Shown: in pieces, positions 571 through 53,151 of the stretch | Layout of the letters: the number at the start of each line of letters is the position of its first letter | Position numbering within the stretch: the first letter of the stretch is position 1 | Assembly (NCBI GenBank): GCA_021927905.1 | Contig: BLLK01000062.1 | Span: 2,170,001-2,234,000 of the forward strand | Origin: Chaetoceros tenuissimus | Lineage: Eukaryota; Bacillariophyta; Thalassiosirophyceae; Chaetocerotales; Chaetocerotaceae | Direction: 5' to 3' | DNA: 64,000 nucleotides | Translations under genes and position numbers: made by a program | Notes under the pieces: generated by a model | Told to the model about the DNA's origin: nothing | The model's input: only the letters and a program-made list of their open reading frames with translations | Databases searched by the model: none

Positions 571-2542
571 ATGCCATCAAGAATAGCGTCTGAAGTAGCT
601 TCTGAAACTAAGGTAGTCAAGAACATGAAAGCTGAGATAGTTGGTGCTCAAAATTCAATCACGCTCTCTTTCAATGGAGTAGACTTTCGTCTAATCCCTT
701 CTAGTTCTAAGTCGAACAGTAAGAAGTCAAACATTTCTCTCTCATCCATCAATGGGGAATATACTTCTATCAATCTTGAATCCTTCACTGGAACCCTTGT
801 TGTATCAGGTGCTGTAGGAAATGAAATTGTCAATCAATCTGTAACTCGTTCTCCTAAAGATAAGAAGGCTGATAACATATGTCTCATTGATGATGAACCA
901 AATACTCCAGAATCATCAGTGCTTCCAAAGGAAGTTATCGAATTGGACAAGGGCCAACAGCAAATCTCATTCGAGAGAAAGGCTGGTAAGAAGAGGGTGA
1001 GTTTCATAGTTTGCTATACTTTTTTTGTTCCTCAATTCCTCATATGTCCTAACTTCATTCTTTTCCTACCTTCTTCTTTGGTTCCATAAGAAACAATGCA
1101 ATGATGATGATGTAAGCAATAAAGTACCGACTCTTGGTCAGTCTTCTCAAATGACACAGAGTGTCGGAGACACAGAAAGCAATCAAATGCAAACTCAAAG
1201 TGATGATCTACTTGTTGAGAAAATCGCACCTGAAGTGGAAGTAAATGCAAGTCAAGGACAACCAACACAAATACTAGAACACGATGACGAAAAACGCAAC
1301 AGCACATTGATGGAAATTGATACTAATGAAGATGATGATGATATTTTGATGGAAAATATTAGTCAGGACTCGATTTCTCAGAAAGAATCCTCGTTGACTG
1401 AGATTGCTTCTGGAGAGACTAGCCTTGTCGCTCAACCTGATAAAAATCTTCCTTGTGATAGGTGGGGACATACAATGACTTTGATCGATGGTAGCAGATT
1501 GCTGGTATATGGAGGGCAGTCCTTTAGTGATAAAGATGGATGTTCTATCACTCTTTCAGATCTTCATGTGTACGACATGAACAAAAATTCCTGGTCAAAG
1601 CCGATCAACTGCGAAGGCATGCCTAGATGTTGGGTAAGTTTCGATGATCACTACCGTATCATAATCTATCATATTTGTTGGCAAGTGCTTACATCCGCAT
1701 TCTTTACATGAAATTAGCATTCTGCGACTTTCCTCCCAGATAGACAATTATTGATTTCATTTGGTGGAGAATCATACAATCCAAAAACAAAAAAAACAAC
1801 TACCACGGATCAAGTCATGGTTCTAGACACTGAAATCATGCTTTGGTATCCTCCATCGGTGTCTGGTTCTGTGCCAACCGGTCGAAGTGGACATACTGCA
1901 TCACTTATGCACAATGATCTTGTTGTATTTGGAGGAGTTAAGAATAACAAATGGCAGAGAAGTTTAGCTGTTCTTGATACTATGCTATGGAAGTGGAGCG
2001 TGCCAAAGATCACCGGGGATGCACCACGTGCTCGCTCCTACCATTCTGCTACACCAATTCCTGATTCTAATCTTCTTCTCATTTTTGGAGGAAATAATGA
2101 AACTCAATGCTTCAATGATGTAGTTGTACTTGACACTAGTAAGGAGAAGTGGACTTGGTTCTACCCTGATGTAAGTGGTGAAAAACCATGTCCAAGAACA
2201 GGCCATAGTGCAGTCCTCTTAGAGGACGGGAAGACTGTCCTTATCTATGGAGGATGGGATCCAAATGATGAAGATGCGGGAAGTGACGAAGACATGATTT
2301 TCGGAGATTCGTTCCTTTTGAACACATCAACTTGGACATGGAAGGCTGGACCAAAGCCAAAATTTGCAGCAAATCAGGAGGGTGTCAAAAACGGTGGTCT
2401 TAAAAGAGTCGGAACATCGTCTGCACTGGTTCCAGGAGAAGATGTGACACAAATGCTCATGTTTGGTGGAAGAGTTCCAAATGACGAATTCTCAAACGAC
2501 TTCCAGACAATTACTGTGCCACACAGAATGATGGGTATGTGA
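571..2542 (+). CDS. Kelch-repeat beta-propeller protein
   Basis: Three exons, 571-996, 1091-1633 and 1718-2542, join in phase 0 at GTGAGT and GTAAGT donors to give 597 residues. Residues 1-260 are polar and low complexity (Ser, Asp, Glu, Gln rich) with no recognised domain. From about residue 260 six kelch motifs follow, each with a GH-T/S-A or HSAT segment and a hydrophobic strand ending in GG (ending LLVYGG, LLISFGG, LVVFGG, LLLIFGG, VLIYGG, MLMFGG). This is the number expected for a full propeller. The second intron falls inside kelch repeat 2, just before its HSAT segment, which supports the splice. Kelch propellers are protein-binding platforms. No BTB, F-box or acyl-CoA-binding domain is visible, so the partner and pathway are unknown. 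The start is the first ATG in frame. Confidence 0.85.
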
Positions 2543-2677
2543 ATGGACAGATTTTAGGGATATGCTACTTAAAATCGATTCCACAAGCAAATGTTTAATT
2601 GTAGATAAAACAGATAAGTAGTTTTACAAATGTTAAAAATACATCAATGAGTCAGTTTGTAGTGAGAGATCCATGAT

Positions 2678-3620
2678 CTAAATAATCTGCATCTGAATCT
2701 GATGATCAGTAACCACAGATCGTTCGACCTCTTGAAATAATCGAGAATCACCGGAAACCTTTCTTCTCTGGAAAGACAGTGAAATTGAGTGTCATACCAT
2801 AGTAGTAAATTTTAATTATTCTGATATATGTACTTACCCTTTCACTGACCACCCAACATAAAGGTCTCCATGAAAACCGAAAGATGAACAAAGGAATACC
2901 TATGATTAGCATCAACTTCTTTGTGATTACATATTCTTCATCCAGCAATGCCAAAATTACGATGTATACCACAAGAACTAAGAGAAGGGGAAATAGACCT
3001 TTATCTAACAAATCACACCATGTACCAAAAAACAATGCACATCGCTCTTTATGAAAATGAAGAGTAGCTTCATCTGGTAACGCAAGCAGTCTCTCTAACC
3101 TTTTTCTTTTCGTTTCATTTCTGGCATCTTGAATTCTATAATACAATCTTTTTACTGGTGATTCTCTTGACCAAAATCCACCATTAGCCTTATGACCCGA
3201 GAGACTGATGCTTCTTTGACGGTATGAATTACTTCTTGGATTTGGTATGTTTCCATGTCTACCTAAAGATTTATTGAATGCTATTGAATACTTTCCCAAA
3301 TCTTCATCGTCACTATTTGAATTATATGGGTCTTTTTCTTCATTCAAGTCCAAAGACTTGTATTCTTCTGGTCCTGTTTCGATGGGTGAAGGAGGCGCTA
3401 AGTTCCGCAGACTCAAAGGCTTCGAAGATATTCTTTCCCTACTGTTGTGTAGAGTCGTAGGTAAGTTGTTTGAAAGAGGTACATCTCTATACATATGAAA
3501 CTCTTCTTCTTCTTCTCCGAGCAAAGCATTATCATCATTTGTCGGAACCTTTTTGTAATGAGAAGGACTCAAGCTTGACATTATTTCTATAGTCGGGGTT
3601 GTGTTTTCAAGTCTGTGCAC
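2678..3620 (-). CDS. Two-pass membrane protein, unknown function
   Basis: Two exons, 3620-2838 and 2767-2678, give 290 residues. The split uses a GTAAGT donor after ...VSER and a CAG acceptor. Without splicing the frame runs on for about 30 residues through intron sequence. The first 150 residues are hydrophilic with an acidic run (EEEEEF) and Ser/Pro-rich stretches. A basic segment (RNETKRKRLERL) precedes two hydrophobic helices at roughly residues 205-222 and 237-253, separated by a short acidic loop. The tail is short and polar. The second Met (MSSLSP) is an alternative start. No family was recognised; the topology suggests a cytosolic N-terminal regulatory tail on a small integral membrane protein. 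Confidence 0.65.
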
Positions 3621-4955
3621 AGAAAACTAAATGTGATTGAGTAATACAGGATCGTAAGTTGCAGATGAAGATTGCAATCTTGTCTACTCATATGTTTATT
3701 ATACGAGCATCACGAACACAGAGAGAGGGCAGAGAGGACGATCAGAAGGAACAAAAAGAAGGGAAGAAAGCTTTTCCTCACTTTCCATGTTTATTTCTAT
3801 CTATTTAGCCAATTGACACTTTTGAATTTTTATACCTAGCCGGTTAAATTCAATCCCATCTTGTTACACGGCCTGCGCCTCAGCACTACCGCCATCATAT
3901 ACCCCCCGCGCGATGGGGGAGGGTCCTGATCGCGCTGCCAAATAACAGAATATAGGTAAACTAGAGAAAATCGGAGCAAAATAAATTTGAATTTTCTACC
4001 AAAACCCACCGTTATTACATGACACCTGTCATAAAGCCTTTTTAATTACCTAGCCAAAATGTACATAGCTATATACTATTTACGTATTCACTTTTCTACT
4101 CTACGTGGTACTGAGAACGCGACAAACATCACAAACGCTCCACATCTACTACGGTACTACTCGTAGTTACAATACACAACAACAGAGATGGATGTAGACT
4201 AGTCAAAGCTCAGTATGAAGAGATTACACATTATTACAACCACACGTTGTGCAATCAATTTGATTTATAGCAGGTTTCTACATTCACATTTACAAACAGG
4301 AAGACGAGAAGATCATTCTTTATTTTGTATTTTGTTGCTTGCCAAGAGAGGAGAGAACAAAATTTTCTCAACAATCAACAATTTTACAACTAGGATCGGC
4401 CAAGCTGTTCTGCTTTGTGCATCTAGCATAATGATAAAAGGAGGTTGGCCATAAAATTTCAATAAATTCTTCAGCAGTATGCACTTCGTGCGATTGCTAC
4501 ATAGTGTATGATACAAATATCACGACGACGTACTGTATGACATAATTATTACGCACTCACCTTGGCAAATTAGGACAACATTTTTATATGGAGCTACAAT
4601 GAAATCTATTAGTGAATATTCTAAAACCTTTTCAATGTTTCTTTTTTGGATATTTTTTGCAATGATACTTTCTTGAAAACGTATTAGCTACAAATATGGT
4701 TCCCTTAATTTGTTTACTTAATGCGACTTGCTACTTTTTGGTAGTCAGTTGTATTGCAAAAATCTTTGATATTCTTATGATGATGAGAAGAGGTAGTTTG
4801 AGTAGTTTTTATTTGACTGCTCTGAGTGTCCGTGGGATATCATTACATGAGAAAACGGCCTCAAATCTGATTGAATTATTCTTTTGAGAGCCATAGATAC
4901 CATTATTTATTAATTCAACTTTCAATTTTAAATACGATTTCAATAAAAAAGATCC

Positions 4956-5394: not shown

Positions 5395-7517
5395 ATGTTC
5401 ATTATGACTAAATCAATGCTTCTATATAGTAGTGTTTGTGTTGTCGGGTTTCTAGCGGTACTCTCAAACGCATTTGTACAAAATTCGTTTGGGATCACAA
5501 GTTCGTCTACAAACAAAAAACTAATCAAAAGAAGAAGCTATCATTTCATTCATCGGCCAGCATATCATCCAAGATATAAAACATTAATCCAAGCAACACA
5601 AGAGGATGAGATATCTGATGAAGATCTGTTACAAGAAATAGATATTTCCATGTTACAAGATTTATGCAAACAAAATAATTTATCTTCAGAAGGAGAGAAG
5701 GGAGATCTCCTTGCCAGACTACGTGATTTCGCATCTCAAGAAGCAGAAGCTGATAAGGAGAGAAGAATGAATCAAAAAGAGAGAATTGAGAGCGGTTTTG
5801 ATGATTATCAAGGAAATGGGAAGGCGAAACATCGTGTATCAAGTGAGGATATGTTGGAAGATGAAGATGATGAAGTTGATGGAGTGTTTTACTTTTCATT
5901 ACCTGGACAAGTTCCTGCAAGTCAAAATAAGACATTGGCAAAAGTGACAACAACAACAATAGACAAGTCTATCAATCCTCAAAATGATCCGAGAAATAGT
6001 ATTACTGCTCCGCTACCTCCTCCGGGTGTTGAACCTAATGAGGATGGAGAGATTGTTGTAACGACATACTCCTCAACAGATCAAAATGACTTGACTGGAA
6101 TTGCAGCACAGCAAGCCGCTGCCAGTGGAAATGAAAGAGCTATGGCTGGAGGCTACAGTAGGGATGAAAATATTGGAGGTGTTGATCTTGAATCTGGTGC
6201 AAAACGGAAAAAAGCTACCGAGAAGGAGTTTGATGATGCGTGTGATATCATTTCAGAACTAGTGTTTTCTTTGCTTTCAATGACGGGAGCACCTGGTTTC
6301 CAAGAAGAATTTTCAGAGGGTGTAACACCATTTATGACTGACGAAGAGAAAGAGGCATATGCATCATCTAGCAAGTCAGCATCGGCACCAAAGATTGATT
6401 TTACTGGTTTTGATCCAAGTCGAGTACCAACTCAATTAATTACACAAGCATCTACAGCTCTTCGAGTCAATAATGGGGATGCTTTACGCAAAGTCTTGAA
6501 TGAAGTTGAGATGCAAGCAATTGGTTTTGATGGAATGAATGGTGATGACAAAGAAAAGGGCGGTGGACATTACAATGAAGTTACAAAGGTCGGGACGTTT
6601 CTCGAAGGTTTTAGAAAAGCTGAAGTTCGTCGAATTGCCCGCGAGACTGCAACTATGTTGCTGGATCAACTTGTAAGTACGGGGGTCAAAGGTCTTGATG
6701 AAATGCTCATGACAATGACACGTGGTGGGGTAGAGACTGGAGAAAGAGGAGAACTCAATGATTCACTTGTTAGATATCTTGACGACGCTATCAGAGATCA
6801 AGAAAAAAGAATAGAGCAAATGTTTGGCCAGACAGGGGCGCTGTCACGCAATAGTGAGAAATTAAATGGAAAGCAAGAGACAGATAATCTATCTGGATTG
6901 TGGAATGTAACTAGAGATGAACAAGGGAATGTTGTCGAGGAGACTTTGGACCCAAATGATCCGCAAGTTAAAAAAGCATTGGAGGCCGAATTAAAAGTAG
7001 CTCAGGGTCAAAAAAGATCCAGTCATGCTGAACCGGCCCAACAACTCCTGAACTTGCTCATACTACTTCGAGAAAGAGTCAAAGCTGAGGCTGTTTTCAC
7101 TAATGATGAAAAGGGTCGCAATCTCCGAATGTTGGCATACTGTATTCACGCAGAAAATGATAGGGAAAGAGAAAAAATTATCGTCGATAATATGGGAAAT
7201 AGCTTGGATGTAAGTATCTCTTTGAAACACTTATATATGATAAGTTTATATGTTGTATCTGTCAAATATTTACTCACCAAAATGTGGTTTCATTTCAGAA
7301 ACTGGATTCATTTTCGGAATTACTTCAAAGTAGTATCGATTATGCTGAGAGTACATCGGCCCAGTTGCAACCTGGAAAAGCAGGATCATTAAATTCGAAT
7401 TTACTGAATTCAATCAAGGACTTAGTTGACGATGTAAAGGAAAGACAAGCTTGGAAGGCGAGTGGTGTTACACAAAATGAACAGAATAGACCTTTGCCAA
7501 GAAATACGAAATCGTAA
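5395..7517 (+). CDS. Plastid-type SAP-domain protein
   Basis: Two exons, 5395-7209 and 7299-7517, join in phase 0 (GTAAGT donor, TTTCAG acceptor) to give 677 residues. The N-terminus (MFIMTKSMLLYSSVCVVGFL...) is a hydrophobic signal peptide ending in LSNAFVQN. That resembles the ASAF-type cleavage motif of diatom plastid presequences and is followed by a Ser/Lys/Arg-rich stretch. At about residues 75-120 comes a SAP-like helix-extended-loop-helix (MLQDLCKQNNLSSEGEKGDLLARLRDF), a fold that binds nucleic acid in many proteins. The remaining 550 residues are hydrophilic and helical, with no other family recognised. A nucleoid or RNA-binding role in the plastid is plausible but inferred. The start is the first ATG in frame; ATG 5404 is an alternative. 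Confidence 0.75.
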
Positions 7518-44959: not shown

Positions 44960-46156
44960 TTATATATCTTTGTAAATTTGAATGGTCCATTCGTTATTTT
45001 CATTGGACCACTCGATATTTCTAACTTTGTATGCACAACTATGTGCAAACTTGTTAGAGTCCCGTAGAACAAAACTCTCACCCGACATGAGCCCATTCTC
45101 AAAGCAGGATGCAAAAGTTTTCAGTTCTTCTTCCCGTATTGGTAGATTCATTTCTTCCCACGAACGCCAATCCTCAATGTCAGAAAAATCATAATCAAAA
45201 TAAGGTCCAATCTCCCAACTCATATGATCTAGAGATGAATCTGGAACTACGACTTCATAGTCGATACCAAACTGACCAAAACCTATGGCAATTGACTGAG
45301 CGTTTCCCTCCTCTAAAACTGGTTGAACTTGCCATGCTTCTCCGTACGGAGTCATACACCATCCAGTAATTAGAAGCTCGTGTGTTGAGTTAATCGCTTC
45401 CTCCACAAAGCATTTCTGATTTGTATGCAATTGGTTAAAGTAAGCTTTGGTCAATTCAAAACTTGTTGAAATAACCGGGCCACAATGCATCAATTCAACT
45501 TTTATTGCTTCGATTGAGTCAAGAAGTCTAAAACCACCATTTTCTTCAAAAATATCAGCTACAGTTTTCTTTTGTTTTGCCATGATTTTAATTGTTTCAA
45601 ATGAAGTATATTTCGTAATAGCTTTTCCATGCACAATTGCACCTCGAGCATGAATACATTTAAATGCTTGATAGATAGGAATTTCTTCTTTTTTCAAAAT
45701 GCCATCAAGGGGTATTGGAGGATATTCTCTTTTCGACAAATGTACAGTCTTTGCATCTACTTCCACCATCAGTGACTCTTTCATATGTGGCCACTTTTCA
45801 AAACAGCAAAAACTCTGAGGATAAGATCTATTCACAGCAATCTGGTCTGATCGAGGTCTTTTCTTTCTTTTTCTAGGTGTATCCATCATATATTTCAAAC
45901 ATTCTTCATAAAAGTTCTGCACCTCTTGAAATAGCTCAGTCACTTCTGTATTATTTGGATGTTTATCTGGATGTATTCTTGATTTTAAAAGCTTAATCAT
46001 TTTACTCTGTTCCTTCTGTGTCATGCTATGTAGTTCTTCCAAGGTTAGTGTGGGACGAACATATTTGAAAAGAGCTTGCAAAGATTCCTCGCTTGCAGGC
46101 GATCGTAACGTTGCTTGTAGCGACTCTATGAAGAACTGCCTAAAGGGGTCAGTCAT
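44960..46156 (-). CDS. J-domain protein, unknown subgroup
   Basis: A single exon of 398 residues. The J-domain lies within residues 30-95. Its second helix and loop are KMIKLLKSRIHPDKHPNNTEVTELFQEVQNFYEECL, with the HPD motif that stimulates Hsp70. It is not at the extreme N-terminus, and no Gly/Phe or zinc-finger regions follow, so it is a class C J-protein. A basic stretch (PRKRKKRPRSD) after it could be a nuclear localisation signal. The remaining 280 residues match no domain I recognise. The gene ends beside the repeat element at 46376, which begins 220 bp from its start codon. Confidence 0.78.
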   Translation of the reverse strand: MTDPFRQFFIESLQATLRSPASEESLQALFKYVRPTLTLEELHSMTQKEQSKMIKLLKSRIHPDKHPNNTEVTELFQEVQNFYEECLKYMMDTPRKRKKRPRSDQIAVNRSYPQSFCCFEKWPHMKESLMVEVDAKTVHLSKREYPPIPLDGILKKEEIPIYQAFKCIHARGAIVHGKAITKYTSFETIKIMAKQKKTVADIFEENGGFRLLDSIEAIKVELMHCGPVISTSFELTKAYFNQLHTNQKCFVEEAINSTHELLITGWCMTPYGEAWQVQPVLEEGNAQSIAIGFGQFGIDYEVVVPDSSLDHMSWEIGPYFDYDFSDIEDWRSWEEMNLPIREEELKTFASCFENGLMSGESFVLRDSNKFAHSCAYKVRNIEWSNENNEWTIQIYKDI

Positions 46157-46375
46157 TATGAGGAAATAATGTGACCATTAATAGGAGACGATCTCCTCAG
46201 CAATCTGAAAACGGGCTTGATTATTACAACAATTCTCTTCTATCTAGACTGCAGCTCTAATAATAGTGTGTTGAATAGAAGAAGAGAATGTTTTCGCGTT
46301 TTTGCGTTGGCGATGGGTTCGGTCGTGATTAAGAGGCTTAATTAAGAGGCTTATAACCTAGTTTTGGAATACCTT

Positions 46376-46750
46376 ACAATTATATTATAATTAAACGCAT
46401 CTACTCTATTGCTCGTTGTAACTATCGTAGTTTCCAATGGTTGGCTTCGCCGAAGCCTCTCGGGAAAGGGGGTACCTTTCCAATGTCAAACTCTACAAAC
46501 CCTAGCCAAATTCGCCCGAACTCAATCCAACTTATTTGGCTCCCGAAAGGATCTAGCTTCCTGTCATTGTTCTATCCAAGTCCTATCCAATGCATCTTCG
46601 TGTCCGTTTCTTAGTCAATGCATTGCAATGACGAGATAGCTTGATCTCTTCTTCGGTCAATAGATATTGACTTTCCGAGGCAAGATCTAACCAATCCTAA
46701 TCAACAAATTGCTAAACATATTCAACAATTGTCTAGCTTTGCTGAAAACC
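46376..46750 (+). repeat. Left end A, copy 1 (375 bp)
   Basis: Identical base for base to 47036-47410, with a period of exactly 660. It starts with ACA and an AT-rich palindrome, has the GGCTTCG-C-CGAAGCC hairpin, and ends in GCTGAAAACC. Confidence 0.97.
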
Positions 46751-46815
46751 CTTCTCACGGTGACTATTGTTGCTGTGTGAAGTTATTTGTTGTGAGTTGT
46801 TGGGTGGGTGGATGG

Positions 46816-47038
46816 TTAAAAACATTCGGCTGAAACTACTAGAGTTCCAACTTGCAACCTTCAAGAGAATGAGAGTAACTAGAAAGATCTTTTGCTCTCT
46901 CTTTCTTCGTCTCTCTCAATCTCTCTCGTTTGAGTCTTGTACGCGCTATTTATCAGAGGAAGTCATTGATGTGAGTGATCGCTCCCGCTCCCTTCTCTTC
47001 CCTTTCTCTTCTCCGAGCTTTCCCGTAGATACACCACA
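46816..47038 (+). repeat. Right end B, copy 1 (223 bp)
   Basis: Identical to 52929-53151. It begins TTAAAAACATTCGG, has a long CT-rich run in the middle, and ends GATACACCACA, where the last ACA is also the start of the second A copy. Confidence 0.97.
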
Positions 47039-47410
47039 ATTATATTATAATTAAACGCATCTACTCTATTGCTCGTTGTAACTATCGTAGTTTCCAATGG
47101 TTGGCTTCGCCGAAGCCTCTCGGGAAAGGGGGTACCTTTCCAATGTCAAACTCTACAAACCCTAGCCAAATTCGCCCGAACTCAATCCAACTTATTTGGC
47201 TCCCGAAAGGATCTAGCTTCCTGTCATTGTTCTATCCAAGTCCTATCCAATGCATCTTCGTGTCCGTTTCTTAGTCAATGCATTGCAATGACGAGATAGC
47301 TTGATCTCTTCTTCGGTCAATAGATATTGACTTTCCGAGGCAAGATCTAACCAATCCTAATCAACAAATTGCTAAACATATTCAACAATTGTCTAGCTTT
47401 GCTGAAAACC
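47036..47410 (+). repeat. Left end A, copy 2 (375 bp)
   Basis: Second identical copy of the A block. It joins directly to copy 1 of B at the shared ACA and leads into the long unique middle. Confidence 0.97.
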
Positions 47411-50339
47411 ATTAGAGAATTCTTATTCGATGGTTCAATGGAATGATTGATCTTTCTATTGGACTCAGCAAAGCTGAAGACCATTTGGAGAATTGAATTC
47501 TTGAATTTCATTATTTATCTTTCTTGTTCAAGTGTCTGATGGTTTCTGTGTGGAAAGGATCATCACGTCAATATTCTTTTCAGAGTCCAACGTTTCTTTT
47601 ATACGGAAAGTGTCTCTGGCGAGAAAGTTTCTCTCTGAGTGTGTAGTTTTGCCCGTAAGCTGTTCCTAATTATTGTTATGAACTTAGTTTCTTTTCTGTC
47701 CCTGTTGTGATGTCTGATTACGATTCTGTTTCTACTGTATATCGTCAATGAACTGTTTATAGGCCTGAATCGTGCTGAGTAGTAATGTGTTTGTTAGTTC
47801 TAGTTGTTCGGAATCATGATTTTAGACTAATGCCCTAAATATGTATCGTAAATTAATCGTGGCGAGAATGAAGGACTGTCCCAGAATCATGTCTTTGTAG
47901 TGAGTGTCTTCCCCTCTTCCTTTCTTAGCTTGCATCCGAATCAGTCTTGTCAATGGGCAGCATTGAGTGAGAATTGACTACTCTAACTGAGTTGTTCTTG
48001 TTCGTTGGAACGTTCTTGTATTAGATTTGTCTCAAGGTAATGTGCTGTGTAAGCTGAATCACGTTTTGATCATCCTTTTGTTAAATCTGTGTTGTGAGCC
48101 GGGGAACATATTTAGATATCGTGCCGAAGCATGATGGTCGAGTGATAGTCCAATCCGGAGGTATGATGAATTGTATCTCTTCATTGTCCTTGATGTAGGT
48201 GATGTGATATTCATTTTTAAGTCTCGTGGATTTACCGTAATGATGTTCATCTTTGTCTTTTATTGTTGTTATTCTTAATTGACCCCGTTGTTCACCTCTG
48301 ACTCGTGTTGGACTCGTATGGCTCATTATTGCCAATGAATTTCTTGTCGAAGTCGGAAAGGAACTTCTTTATTGTCAAATGTGACATGCCTTCTTTGTGT
48401 AGTCTATTGGCTATAAACGGTTGAATAAATTGGTCGAATTTTCGATGAAGGCTTTGAGTCGATATCCGCTCGCACTCATAGTTTGCAGCTGGGTTAGGGG
48501 TCACTGATTTCCTCCTTAGGTGTAGGTGTGGTTTCTGTTCGAGCTTGCAGGTTCCTCATAATTCTTATTGTGATTCTTCACCTTGATGTAGCGGTGTTTG
48601 TAACGTGCTGGTGATGATTGCGATTAATAGGGGTTAGATTCGTCAGGTTCGTGAGGCATAGAAGAGTGTTGGTTCCTATGAGTCTGAAACTGAGCTATTT
48701 GCGGGTTACTGACGATTTTTATGTTACTATTGTTTCCCTGTCCCTTCATCGGGGTCTCAGAGTGTTGTATTTTCCCGGTCAGGTATATCTTTCCCATGCA
48801 TGCCAGTGTTTGTGTTTCTTGAGAACTGTTCCTCTTCGTGACTCTCACTGATGTCGATATGTTGCATCTAATTTTGTGTCTACCTGCTGTGAAGTGACAG
48901 GAGTAGGCGTTGGTGGGTATTGTATGTCGAAGTTACTTATCTATCTTCTATTTCACGAATGTCCTTTCATGGTTCTTACTCGCTGAGAGAGATTCCTTAC
49001 TTTTAAGCTGCTAATTAGTGTTTCAAATTGCCTTACTATAGTTTAAGATTTAGCTCCTGTACATGAGTTTGCTCTTGACAGAGGATTGTTTCCTTTGTTC
49101 TGTGAACATTTCTTTTCAGGCTTTTGTCATCCAGACGTTCGTTGGTCTTCCTATGGATCGTCTGATTCACTGATATGAGTCTATGTTTCAAAATTCTGTT
49201 CCCTTTATGTCTAAGCTTATTGTCCGTTCAGGCTCTGTCTCCCTATACGGAGAAATGTCTGATCTATTGTTTTGTCGTTGGGGGAGTGTTGGCTTGTTTT
49301 TTTTTCTATTTTCGGTGAGGAAGGTGTTTGTCGACTTCGTGCTGTATCGATCATTTATGCTATCTGACAATGAATCTGTCATGCATTGCTCAGTATTTTC
49401 TATTGTGTAGCTCTTGTCGTGGCTTCATCATGGTTGCAGTGTATACGAAGTTGTCAGCTTTGTTATCGCTTTCTTTGGTTGTGCTAGTGATTTCTACTTT
49501 GTTCGTTATAGCGATGCTCTTAATGGTTACCTATCTAGTAGACGAGCCTTGTACTTTTGCTCTCCTTCTAAGTTCATCTTGGTCACTTTATTTCTTGGTC
49601 CATTTGTTGTATACGATTTCTATCCTTTGCTTTGATTTTGACTTCAGTATTCGTCAACTGTGATTCCCGTGGTTCAGATAACTATTGTTATGTTTAGTGA
49701 TTCTTGTCCGTGCCTCTCGTTAAGTTGAGTTGGTTGGTATGTTCCATTAGTTTCTAATCGATCTAGGTTGTAAATGGTGTACGAAATCTCGTTTCTCATC
49801 TTGGTTTGCTTGTTGGATGTGGATCAGAGTGTCTGTCCTGGTGTACTGTATTGATTCTGTCAGCGAATAGCACTTTCACTCGAAGTGCGAAATGATGTTT
49901 GTTCAGTGGTTCCGACGTTAGGATTGTATTCCATTCCTGGTTCCTATTGGAATTCTACCGAGAGTTGCTTTCATTTAATTATCATGTCTAAGAATTCTAT
50001 TGGCTAAACTACATTGAATGCTATGCGAAGAGTTGCTAATAGTTACTCATTATAGGGTTACCGTGTCATTGAGATTGTCGTGATTACGTTCGTACTATGT
50101 CTTGCAGTTTGGTATTCACGGCGTTGCTCCTTGAGGGGTCGAGCCACGTCCTTCCTTTCTCGAGGATTTTGTATTGTTATGATTTAATTTCTTGACGTAT
50201 CTGCTCGTATGATGCTATGATTAGAAGTACCTCCCTCTGCGTAGATCTTGTTAGTCATAGATCTACGTCGTGATAGTTGTCCAGTTTGCTATGAATAGTA
50301 GTATTATGTTACTCTCTGAGGAGTCGAGTTATTGCCTTG

Positions 50340-50650
50340 TCTTTTCCAGTATTGGTATCTGCTGTGAGTAGCATTGCTTTGTGTGCAGAGTTAAGTGCGT
50401 CCTTTTCAAAGGTTGTTATGACCTCTTATCGTGATATCGATTAGTCCTTCCCAGTCTTTGTATTTGCTGTGAGGAGCATTACTTTGTGTGTGGACTTGAA
50501 TGCTTTCCCTTCGAGGTTGTTATGACCTCCTATCGTGATATTGCTTAATCTTTTCCAGTATTGGTATCTGCCTTGAGTAGCATTACTTTGTATGTAGAGT
50601 TACATGCTTTCCCTTCGAGTTTGTTACGATCTCCTATGGTGAGATGTCGT
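50340..50650. repeat. ~104-bp decayed tandem repeat, three units
   Basis: A CCAGTATTGGTATCTGC-like sequence starts each unit near 50348, 50451 and 50556. The same order of segments follows: GAGTAGCATTRCTTTGTRTG, TTTCCCTTCGAG, GTTGTTATGACCTCYTATCG. Confidence 0.75.
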
Positions 50651-51019
50651 TAATAGTAGTGTCATGTTGCTCTCTGTAAGAAGACGAGTCACTGCTTATC
50701 CTGGCTGGAGGATTCTATGTGGCTTAGATTAGAATTGTTCTTTGTAGGCTACTGTTCTTCGTGATAACTCGTTCCAGATAAATAGAGTTATGTTACCACC
50801 AGAGGAGTCGAAATGTTGCTCCGTATCTCGTATTGATATCGCAATGATAAGAGAAACGCTCTCTGCGTAGTTAATGTTTGGATTTGAAACCATCAGGGTA
50901 ATTTAGTCCCCATACTCGTTCCATTTGATGATTTGATGCGGCAGTAGTCAAGCTTACTCTCTGCGGAATTGCTGTTCTTTCTAGGTTGTTATTTTTCATC
51001 ATGATACGTCGTGCAGCTT

Positions 51020-51430
51020 GGTTTGAATCGTGTTATCTCACTCTCTGTGGAGTCAAGTTAATAAGACAAATCCCGTCGCTAGGATTCTATGTTGATATGA
51101 TTAATATTACTCTCTGCAGAGTTACTGTTCTCTCGAGTTATCATGTTTTTCATTATGATGTGCGTGGAGTCTTTGAATGAATCGTATTATTTTTACTCTC
51201 CTGAGTAGACGAACTTACTACTTATCCCATCGTTAGGATTCTGTGTTGATATGATTAATATTACTCTCTATCGGGTTGTGGTTCTTTCGAGGTTATCATT
51301 CTTCTTCATCATGATGTAACATGTAGATTTTGAATGAATCGTGTTATATTTACTCTCCTGAGTAATCAACTTACTACTTGTCCCATCGTTAGGATTCTAT
51401 CTATGTTGATGAGATTAATGTCACTCTCTA
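51020..51430. repeat. ~155-bp decayed tandem repeat
   Basis: Units share TGAATCGTGTTAT (near 51026, 51179 and 51335), a CGTTAGGATTCT segment, GTTGATATGATTAAT, and TTACTCTCT. They are spaced 150-157 bp apart. Confidence 0.75.
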
Positions 51431-51549
51431 CCGAAGTCAAGTCAGTTGTGAGGATTTTATTCTGTTGTGATTTGAGTTGTTCTTTTGCAGAGATTCTGGT
51501 CTTTGAAGATATTGAATATTATCAATTCGTTTAGTTCAGAGGGTCATTG

Positions 51550-52325
51550 CATAAATCTTTCCAATGCTAATGGACTCGAAGAGCCCAACTATGTATTCTG
51601 TTTGAAGCGCTGCGGCTAATGAACTTGAAGAGCTCGACTATGTATTCTATGTTTAAGCCATGAGGCTAAGGACTTTCTTGCTGCCTTGAAAGGCTGAAGC
51701 GCTGCAGCTAATGGAGTAGAAGGTCTCCTTATACATACTGTGTTGCATCAACTAGTTGGAAGATAGATTTTTCCGTCTATGTTAGAGCGTTGCGTCTAGG
51801 AGTCGGTCTATAGTCTGAAAACAAATCCCATATTTGTAAGCAATGTGGCTAAGGACTAATCTGCAGCCCTATCATCTGTTCTATATTTGGTATTTAGTTT
51901 ACGGACTGCTTGTCCAAATTTTTATTCTATATTTAAGCACTGCGGCTAAGGACTGTTTGCCCCAATATTTACTCTATGTCTCAGCCTCCAGGCCGGGACT
52001 GTTATGCAGCCCAACAATGATCTCTGCGTTCGAGAACTGCAGCGAAAGGACTAAATTGGAGCCCAACTATTATTTCTTTCTATATTCAAGCTCTGCGGCT
52101 AAGGACTGAGAAGCAGCCCGACTATGTATTCCATAAGTATCTAAGCACTGAGGCCAAGGACTGTTGTGAGGTCCAACTGTGTATTCGTATTTGAGCACTG
52201 CGGCTACGTGTTAGTCATACCATCTGTATTGAAGCACTGCGGCTAAGGGTTAGTCATCCCATCTGTATTGAGGCACTGCGGCTAAGGGTTAGTCATCCCA
52301 TCTGTATTTAAGCACTGTGATATCT
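51550..52325. repeat. CTGCGGCTAAGGACTG tandem family, 39-65-bp units
   Basis: The motif GCACTGCGGCTAAGGACTG, with variants, recurs more than ten times between 51.6 and 52.3 kb in units of 50-65 bp. The last three units (TTAGTCAT at 52211, 52250 and 52289) settle to an exact 39-bp period and are nearly identical, so they are the youngest. Confidence 0.85.
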
Positions 52326-52510
52326 CTTTGAGCTGGAAGTGGCTAATCTGCTTTCTGGTATGCTCGTTACGACTATGTATTTCTCTGCACCGGGAGTGGC
52401 TGGTGTGATCTCCTGCATGCTCGACATGGCTGTGGTGTATTCTTAGACTGGAGTAGCTTATCTGATTCAAGTGCATACTCGACATGACCTCAGCTGTGTA
52501 CAGATATTCC

Positions 52511-52855
52511 TAATACATGACTGTAATGTGTTCCTAGGCTGGAAGTAGCCCGTCCATTCCACTCCTGCATGTTATACTGTACATGACTGTGGTGTGCTCT
52601 TGGGCTGGAGCCCGTCTAATTCAGGTAATACATGCCTGTAATGTATTCCTAGGCTGGAAGTAGCCCGTCCATTCCACTCCTGCATGTTATACTGTACATG
52701 ACTGTGGTGTGCTCTTGGGCTGGAGCCCGTCTAATTCAGGTAATACATGCCTGTAATGTATTCCTAGGCTGGAAGTAGCCCGTCCATTCCACTCCTGCAT
52801 GTTATACTGTACATGACTGTGGTGTGCTCTTGGGCTGGGGCCCGTCTAATTCAGG
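52511..52855. repeat. 115-bp tandem repeat, three near-identical units
   Basis: Units start TAATACATG at 52511, 52626 and 52741, a period of exactly 115. The second and third differ by one base in the stretch read (GCTGGAGCCC versus GCTGGGGCCC). The first differs at a few positions near its start. Confidence 0.93.
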
Positions 52856-52928
52856 TGCATGCTCGACATGACCTCAGCTGTGTGCAGCTATTCCTTGTGA
52901 TCCAATGGCCAAGCCTTTGGAGATCCTC

Positions 52929-53151
52929 TTAAAAACATTCGGCTGAAACTACTAGAGTTCCAACTTGCAACCTTCAAGAGAATGAGAGTAACTAGAAAGA
53001 TCTTTTGCTCTCTCTTTCTTCGTCTCTCTCAATCTCTCTCGTTTGAGTCTTGTACGCGCTATTTATCAGAGGAAGTCATTGATGTGAGTGATCGCTCCCG
53101 CTCCCTTCTCTTCCCTTTCTCTTCTCCGAGCTTTCCCGTAGATACACCACA
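52929..53151 (+). repeat. Right end B, copy 2 (223 bp)
   Basis: Second identical copy of B, ending in ACA. It lies 157 bp upstream of the TEX10/Ipi1 start codon and so may now form part of its promoter or 5' UTR. Confidence 0.97.

Follow-up and report, generated by a model that had tools for sequence, protein, structure and literature searches.

The element described here lies in a 64-kb stretch of the genome of the diatom Chaetoceros tenuissimus (bases 2170001-2234000 of contig BLLK01000062.1, referred to below as C48; the whole stretch is termed the window). We interpret this element, which extends from position 53148 to 46378 on the minus strand, as a non-autonomous tyrosine recombinase (YR) retrotransposon of the split-direct-repeat (SDR) type, a type included in the order DIRS, and we place the probability of this assignment at about 85%. 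It probably uses the enzymes of the coding YR retrotransposons in the same genome and is probably mobilized by them in trans. On the plus strand, two repeats designated A and B occur in the order A-65 bp-B-A-5.5 kb-B. The two copies of A (46378-46750 and 47038-47410) are identical at 373/373 bases and those of B (46816-47035 and 52929-53148) at 220/220. The original prediction had reported this order and the complete identity of the repeats, and both were confirmed; the lengths given there (375 and 223 bp) were slightly too long, as they included the bases ACA shared at three boundaries. The locus had been divided in that prediction into a short and a long unit, regarded as two head-to-tail copies with different cargo. 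However, when it is read on the minus strand, where B becomes a and A becomes b, the order is a1-5.5 kb-b1a2-65 bp-b2, which is that of a single 6.77-kb SDR element, and the supposed short unit is its 3' end. In this orientation, the 5' terminal repeat a1 (52929-53148), whose conserved end CGTAGATRCACC is also found in relatives on the contigs C34 and C14, is followed by a non-coding middle of 5518 bp (47411-52928), an internal copy of the 3' terminal repeat (b1, 47038-47410), an abutting internal copy of the 5' terminal repeat (a2, 46816-47035), a 65-bp spacer (46751-46815) and the 3' terminal repeat b2 (46378-46750).

The repeat order at C48 corresponds to one that is already known. The elements PAT, Ngaro, and VIPER of the order DIRS carry, according to the parts of the literature drawn upon here, split direct repeats in the arrangement A1-ORFs-B1-A2-B2, where the ORFs are open reading frames (PMC4157794, PMC6681497, PMC8547959, PMC12278014). 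The proposal that the locus represents an undescribed system was therefore not upheld, as its order is that of these published repeats read from the other strand (PMC4157794, PMC6681497). The arrangement A1-internal-B1A2-B2 is present in the C48 element and also in the C34 element, whereas the reverse transcriptase (RT) and YR genes by which Ngaro, PAT, and VIPER are defined are both lacking from C48. Because no RT/RNase H or YR is encoded, we have placed this element as a non-autonomous relative rather than as a coding member of the group. The original prediction correctly held that it is neither a normal long terminal repeat (LTR) element nor a transposon with terminal inverted repeats (TIRs). 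LTR retrotransposons, including the LARD and TRIM forms, were rejected because two types of repeats are present in the order A-B-A-B and not as repeat-internal-repeat, and a TIR DNA transposon because there is no inverted pair of at least 30 bp, only an 8-bp subterminal pair, and no target site duplication (TSD) of fixed length. A Helitron-like tandem was rejected by eye, with no dedicated search.

Searches of the genome (41.03 Mb in 68 contigs) with A, B, and the middle identified related sequences on C34, C14, and C24, and a further search with the end of the C34 element gave a match on C54; these searches give lower bounds for the number of relatives. A and B are thus not confined to the window, and the earlier view that they mark a non-autonomous mobile-element family with conserved ends and different middles is borne out by these loci. 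The element on the minus strand of C34 is 6.97 kb long and shows the same order with repeats of its own, which are identical at 422/422 bases for A and 201/201 for B. The C34 and C48 elements are alignable, with a good match only over the first ~80 bases of A and parts of B, and the 65-bp spacer of C48 aligns with that of C34 better than with any of 2000 shuffled sequences. The whole order, spacer included, thus looks inherited between the two elements, with the repeat pairs being identical in each lineage. C14 contains only the long part, whose main collinear pieces show 79-95% similarity to C34, and two remnants were also found, consisting of an interrupted B with repeats of the middle on C24 and a decayed B on C54. 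An insertion of 686 bp, which has terminal inverted repeats CCCCGTGCACAAATTGGGG and is probably an element resembling the miniature inverted-repeat transposable elements, splits the B repeat on C24 (L021, C24:20001-30000; 21.0-22.0 kb, minus strand). The C24 contig itself (C24:1-56547) contains a 6-kb direct repeat near both of its ends (91.5% identity). It also has several tandem arrays that have diverged, and in this it resembles a subtelomere or a repeat region left unplaced.

The same genome also contains coding elements with this geometry. A profile search with PF00589 gave no match at the default E-value, but at E<=10 there were nine weak matches, which led to coding elements with long ORFs. 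Four copies fetched whole, belonging to family I (on C54 and C17), family II (C16), and family IV (C34), show the order A1-ORFs-B1A2-short spacer-B2, with repeat pairs that are 99.3-100% identical. In the C54 copy of family I, A1 and A2 are each 187 bp, B1 and B2 each 143 bp, and the spacer 19 bp, for a total of 6.5 kb, and its overall identity with the C17 copy is 98.9%. The repeats A and B measure 200 and 139 bp in family II (spacer 23 bp) and 144 and 218 bp in family IV (spacer 15 bp), with all pairs 100% identical. Total lengths calculated from coordinates are likewise similar, viz. 6.77 and 6.97 kb for the non-coding elements versus 6.5, 6.1, and 7.2 kb for the coding copies, which may point to a size constraint, even though two non-coding elements cannot show it. 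The families differ from the C48 element in their long ORFs and dissimilar terminal sequences. Families I, II, and IV have in the same order a first ORF of 694-723 aa, an RT-type frame, and a YR frame of 389-401 aa. No Pfam match above the cut-off was obtained for the first ORF, which could be called Gag-like by position only. The RT-type frame is 830 aa long in family II and 891 aa in family IV, and in the C54 copy of family I it is broken by a stop into 539 and 276 aa.

For the YR frames, PF00589 matched family I with an E-value of 0.0016, below the cut-off, and did not match families II and IV. In an alignment of the three proteins, the R of the HxxR motif, GRW, and the Y are retained, and the H is present in families I and IV but not in II. 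The RVT_1 profile matched the RT-type frame below the cut-off in families II (E 0.0053) and I (E 0.1) and not in family IV, and a sequence search of the PDB with the family II frame gave weak matches only. None of the 73 RVT_1 matches was used as a partner. A genome search with the YR of family I yielded 43 match rows (sometimes two per copy) that include several families with near-identical copies, and we regard the coding YR families as possible helpers of the C48 element. Three further families (Ib, III, and V) were sampled over ~0.9 kb of their 3' ends, where B1 and B2 are 100, 98.7, and 89.8% identical, respectively; the end of A2 in these families is putative, because A1 was not seen. 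The YR match of family Ib contains one stop codon. The region C21:1005001-1018000 was left out of the SDR count, since it is a nested tandem with no clean set of A1, B1, A2, and B2. It contains (L057-L058) two 4.2-kb stretches that are 99.7% identical and separated by 8.4 kb, both of which contain a frame of 496 aa, as well as weak YR matches, and we read it as a tandem or nested array of YR elements.

A second feature linking the non-coding and coding elements is a C-rich tract at the A2/B2 boundary. This tract is located just before B2 in all six families that yielded a B1...B2 pair (I, Ib, II, III, IV, and V), for example as CCTCTCCCACCCACCCCCGCC in family II and CACCCACCCACCAACCC in family III, and also in both non-coding elements that have a spacer, which begins on the minus strand with CCATCCACCCACCCAAC in C48 and with CCAGCCCACCACACCCAAC in C34. 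The motif CCCACCC is present in families II, III, IV, and V. Its only occurrence on the two strands of the window (~128,000 positions) is the site in the C48 spacer, and there are four occurrences in a wider background of 303,101 letters (the window and the C14, C34, and C24 stretches, both strands). When 20-mers are ranked by C minus G, 7 of 127,960 in the window are as extreme as the start of the C48 spacer; in the wider background 276 of 302,941 have C>=11 and G<=2, a cut which family IV (G=3) fails. These counts describe rarity and do not constitute a planned test, because the motif was examined after it had been seen. Second-strand synthesis in the replication of YR retrotransposons is an unsettled matter, and it is our guess that the tract has a priming role, for example as the complement of a purine tract which primes this step.

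The boundaries of the element, whose ends are GGTGYATCTACG...GTAGATGCGTTTAATTATAAYATAATT, are consistent with recombination at a short core of the kind seen in YR elements. The bases ACA are common to the left edge (46376-46378), the b1/a2 junction (47036-47038), and the right edge (53149-53151) of the C48 element, and they are a candidate 3-bp recombination core; the corresponding bases are AA in C34, and none are shared in C14. In the coding copies 0-6 bp are shared at the boundaries. No target duplication longer than 3 bp, and none of fixed length, is present at C48, and in the part of the literature drawn upon no TSD is stated for VIPER and TATE (PMC12278014). The statement that terminal inverted repeats are lacking was nearly right, in that no inverted pair of at least 30 bp is present in the element, but it overlooked an 8-bp subterminal pair, GTAGATGC/GCATCTAC, which is exact in C34 and has one mismatch in C48. 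Two consecutive hairpins are predicted in b2; their order is the same for C48, C34, and C14, and stem bases are changed in C48 relative to the other two. The outermost 27 bp differ by one base among the relatives, and this motif, with up to three mismatches, occurs at five places genome-wide (two each in C48 and C34 and one in C14), as against none for a reversed control; it was not found in IMG/VR.

The earlier statement that the element has no recognizable coding capacity was confirmed. The longest stop-to-stop frame in the C48 middle is 114 aa, which is at chance level (mean of 121 aa in 60 Markov resamples), and Pfam searches with 10 of the 24 frames of at least 60 aa (nine in the middle and one in A2) gave no match above the curated cut-offs and two below them. 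Frames in the C34 and C14 middles reach lengths of 302 and 213 aa, respectively, compared with resample maxima of 247 and 205. A viral insert was rejected, as viral proteins were absent from the frames scanned. A structured RNA gene was likewise rejected for the C48 element; Rfam searches of the window at the gathering threshold, and of the element and its C34 and C14 relatives at E<=5, gave sub-threshold matches only, and no tRNA was detected by ARAGORN in its bacterial setting. Tandem arrays detected by TRF make up ~20% of the C48 middle (~1.1 kb) and ~40% of the C34 and C14 middles when summed, and their units differ by locus: C48 has units of 104, 154, 39, and 115 bp, C34 has units of 100 and 43 bp, C14 has units of 99 and 122 bp, and C24 has a unit of 140 bp. 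In the C34 middle (L025), the 100-bp unit is present in 17.5 copies (2152-3885) and the 43-bp unit in 9.7 copies (1417-1826). Parts of the C48 middle are 73-78% similar to the 140-bp array region on C24. The minus strand of the C48 middle is A-rich and C-rich, with an AT skew of +0.28 and a GC skew of -0.09; the corresponding values are +0.10 and -0.32 for C34 and +0.10 and -0.39 for C14.

What is known of how SDR retrotransposons replicate comes mainly from models, in which a DNA circle is an intermediate. Under such a model, a minus-strand transcript extending from a1 to b2 would be reverse-transcribed by the enzyme of a coding YR retrotransposon, the internal b1a2 block would serve as the template joining both ends into a DNA circle, and the YR would recombine the b|a junction of this circle with a short matching target (ACA in C48 and AA in C34). 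A single template would thereby renew the two members of each repeat pair in every cycle, and this would explain why the repeats in C48 are identical despite the strong divergence between loci.

A number of observations weigh against the assignment of the C48 element to non-autonomous YR retrotransposons. No coding element with the terminal sequences of C48 was found, nor are these sequences shared with a particular coding family; all five places with the 27-bp end motif are non-coding elements. Comparisons of families I, II, and IV with the non-coding elements, including the C48 middle, by blastn and tblastn revealed no similarity, and for Ib, III, and V, compared by their 3' ends, there were weak short matches only, all of them on the C24 contig. 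A coding partner may have gone unseen, because complete copies were obtained for only three families and 3' ends for three more. The RT and YR of the coding elements were themselves recognized only by sub-threshold profile matches, and one of the seven YR families examined (C21:1005001-1018000) has no readable SDR. The spacer of C48 measures 65 bp, as against only 15-23 bp in families I, II, and IV, and the exact motif CCCACCC is absent from C34 and from families I and Ib. C14 is without split repeats, as it has one A, one B, and no short part. Since each subfamily has one or two recognizable loci, there is also no sister copy to prove movement, and gene conversion could likewise keep the repeats identical.

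This last process is central to a different history, in which an old local tandem duplication had its first copy internally deleted and gene conversion has kept the repeats identical, so that the locus would not be a current mobile element. Complete identity within loci combined with strong divergence between them is also expected from concerted evolution, and a sister copy was not found in the assembly. We nonetheless consider this history unlikely, since two unrelated loci have in common this order and an alignable 65-bp spacer with a C-rich tract, and both order and tract recur in the coding YR elements; furthermore, no repeat of at least 30 bp links the spacer to the long middle, and the identity extends to the very edge of each repeat. 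Somewhat less likely again is a replicon existing only as DNA circles, similar to the Cryptons, which a YR would move without reverse transcription and in which the short and long units would be separable circles sharing the b|a junction. Such separate movement of the units would be expected to leave a long unit alone, as seen in C14, and the lack of a TSD also agrees with it, as does the occurrence of Cryptons in a diatom (PMC3212892). However, in the SDR elements of families I, II, and IV the YR frame comes after long open frames, the frame preceding the YR shows a weak RT signal in I and II but not in IV, and the C-rich tract is common to C48 and these SDR coding elements. Internal B1A2 blocks are, moreover, a feature of SDR retrotransposons that is not described for Cryptons in the part of the source drawn upon here (PMC3212892). 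An artefact arising from collapsed or misjoined repeat copies is conceivable in a hybrid assembly of short reads and MinION data from a species with 1.56% heterozygosity (PMC8613185), but it has very little to commend it, because the geometry was assembled independently for four coding copies of differing sequence and for C34, where the repeats are strongly diverged.

Among known short elements, the layout of what had been called the short unit is found in SIRE, a short form of VIPER in T. cruzi described as A2-~30 bp exclusive region-B2 (PMC6681497). In this description SIRE corresponds to the A2-B2 part only, whereas the C48 element has kept all of its SDRs along with a non-coding middle of 5.5 kb. 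A narrow search of open-licence papers for non-autonomous DIRS/Ngaro and LARD-like forms returned SIRE and, in the parts of these papers drawn upon, no large gene-less SDR element. Large retrotransposon derivatives (LARDs) of LTR elements similarly have a long non-coding middle between functional ends, but their ends are plain LTRs, whereas the split direct repeats of C48 resemble those of YR elements. The broader proposal that there is a class of full-length gene-less SDR elements, which would be the DIRS-order counterpart of LARDs, and that YR retrotransposons in general carry the C-rich tract as a signal in cis, is tentative, and we rate its chances as slightly below even. If such a class exists, its members would be of the size of coding elements with an array-rich non-coding middle, keeping only the split repeats and the C-rich tract. 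A gene-less element of this kind isolates the DNA expected to be needed in cis, viz. the two split repeats, the 27-bp end, the C-rich tract, and the short core, and as its end structure is kept it makes the bridging-template model directly testable. Since YR elements are usually found via their proteins, and the repeat order alone resembled here an unclassified tandem, our results suggest that large gene-less forms may be missed elsewhere.

The absence of differences at 593 repeat sites gives a 95% upper bound of ~0.5% (3/593) for the divergence of the C48 repeats, which is below the heterozygosity of 1.56% given for C. tenuissimus in the part of the source drawn upon (PMC8613185). Provided that repeat identity reflects the age of the insertion, a recent and perhaps polymorphic insertion is expected; under gene conversion this age estimate would no longer hold. 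The element is flanked by divergent ORFs, of which one starts at 46156 on the minus strand and is J-domain-like in our reading, and the other is listed on the plus strand from 53248. Just outside its left end, the 13-bp unit ATTAAGAGGCTTA is present in two tandem copies (window 46328-46353). Among the window ORFs there are, in our reading, plastid-type leader sequences. Lastly, a ~315-bp direct repeat without any match to the element is found on C54 (L041, C54:3225001-3232000), where its copies at 5849-6163 and 6282-6593 are 98% identical and ~120 bp apart.

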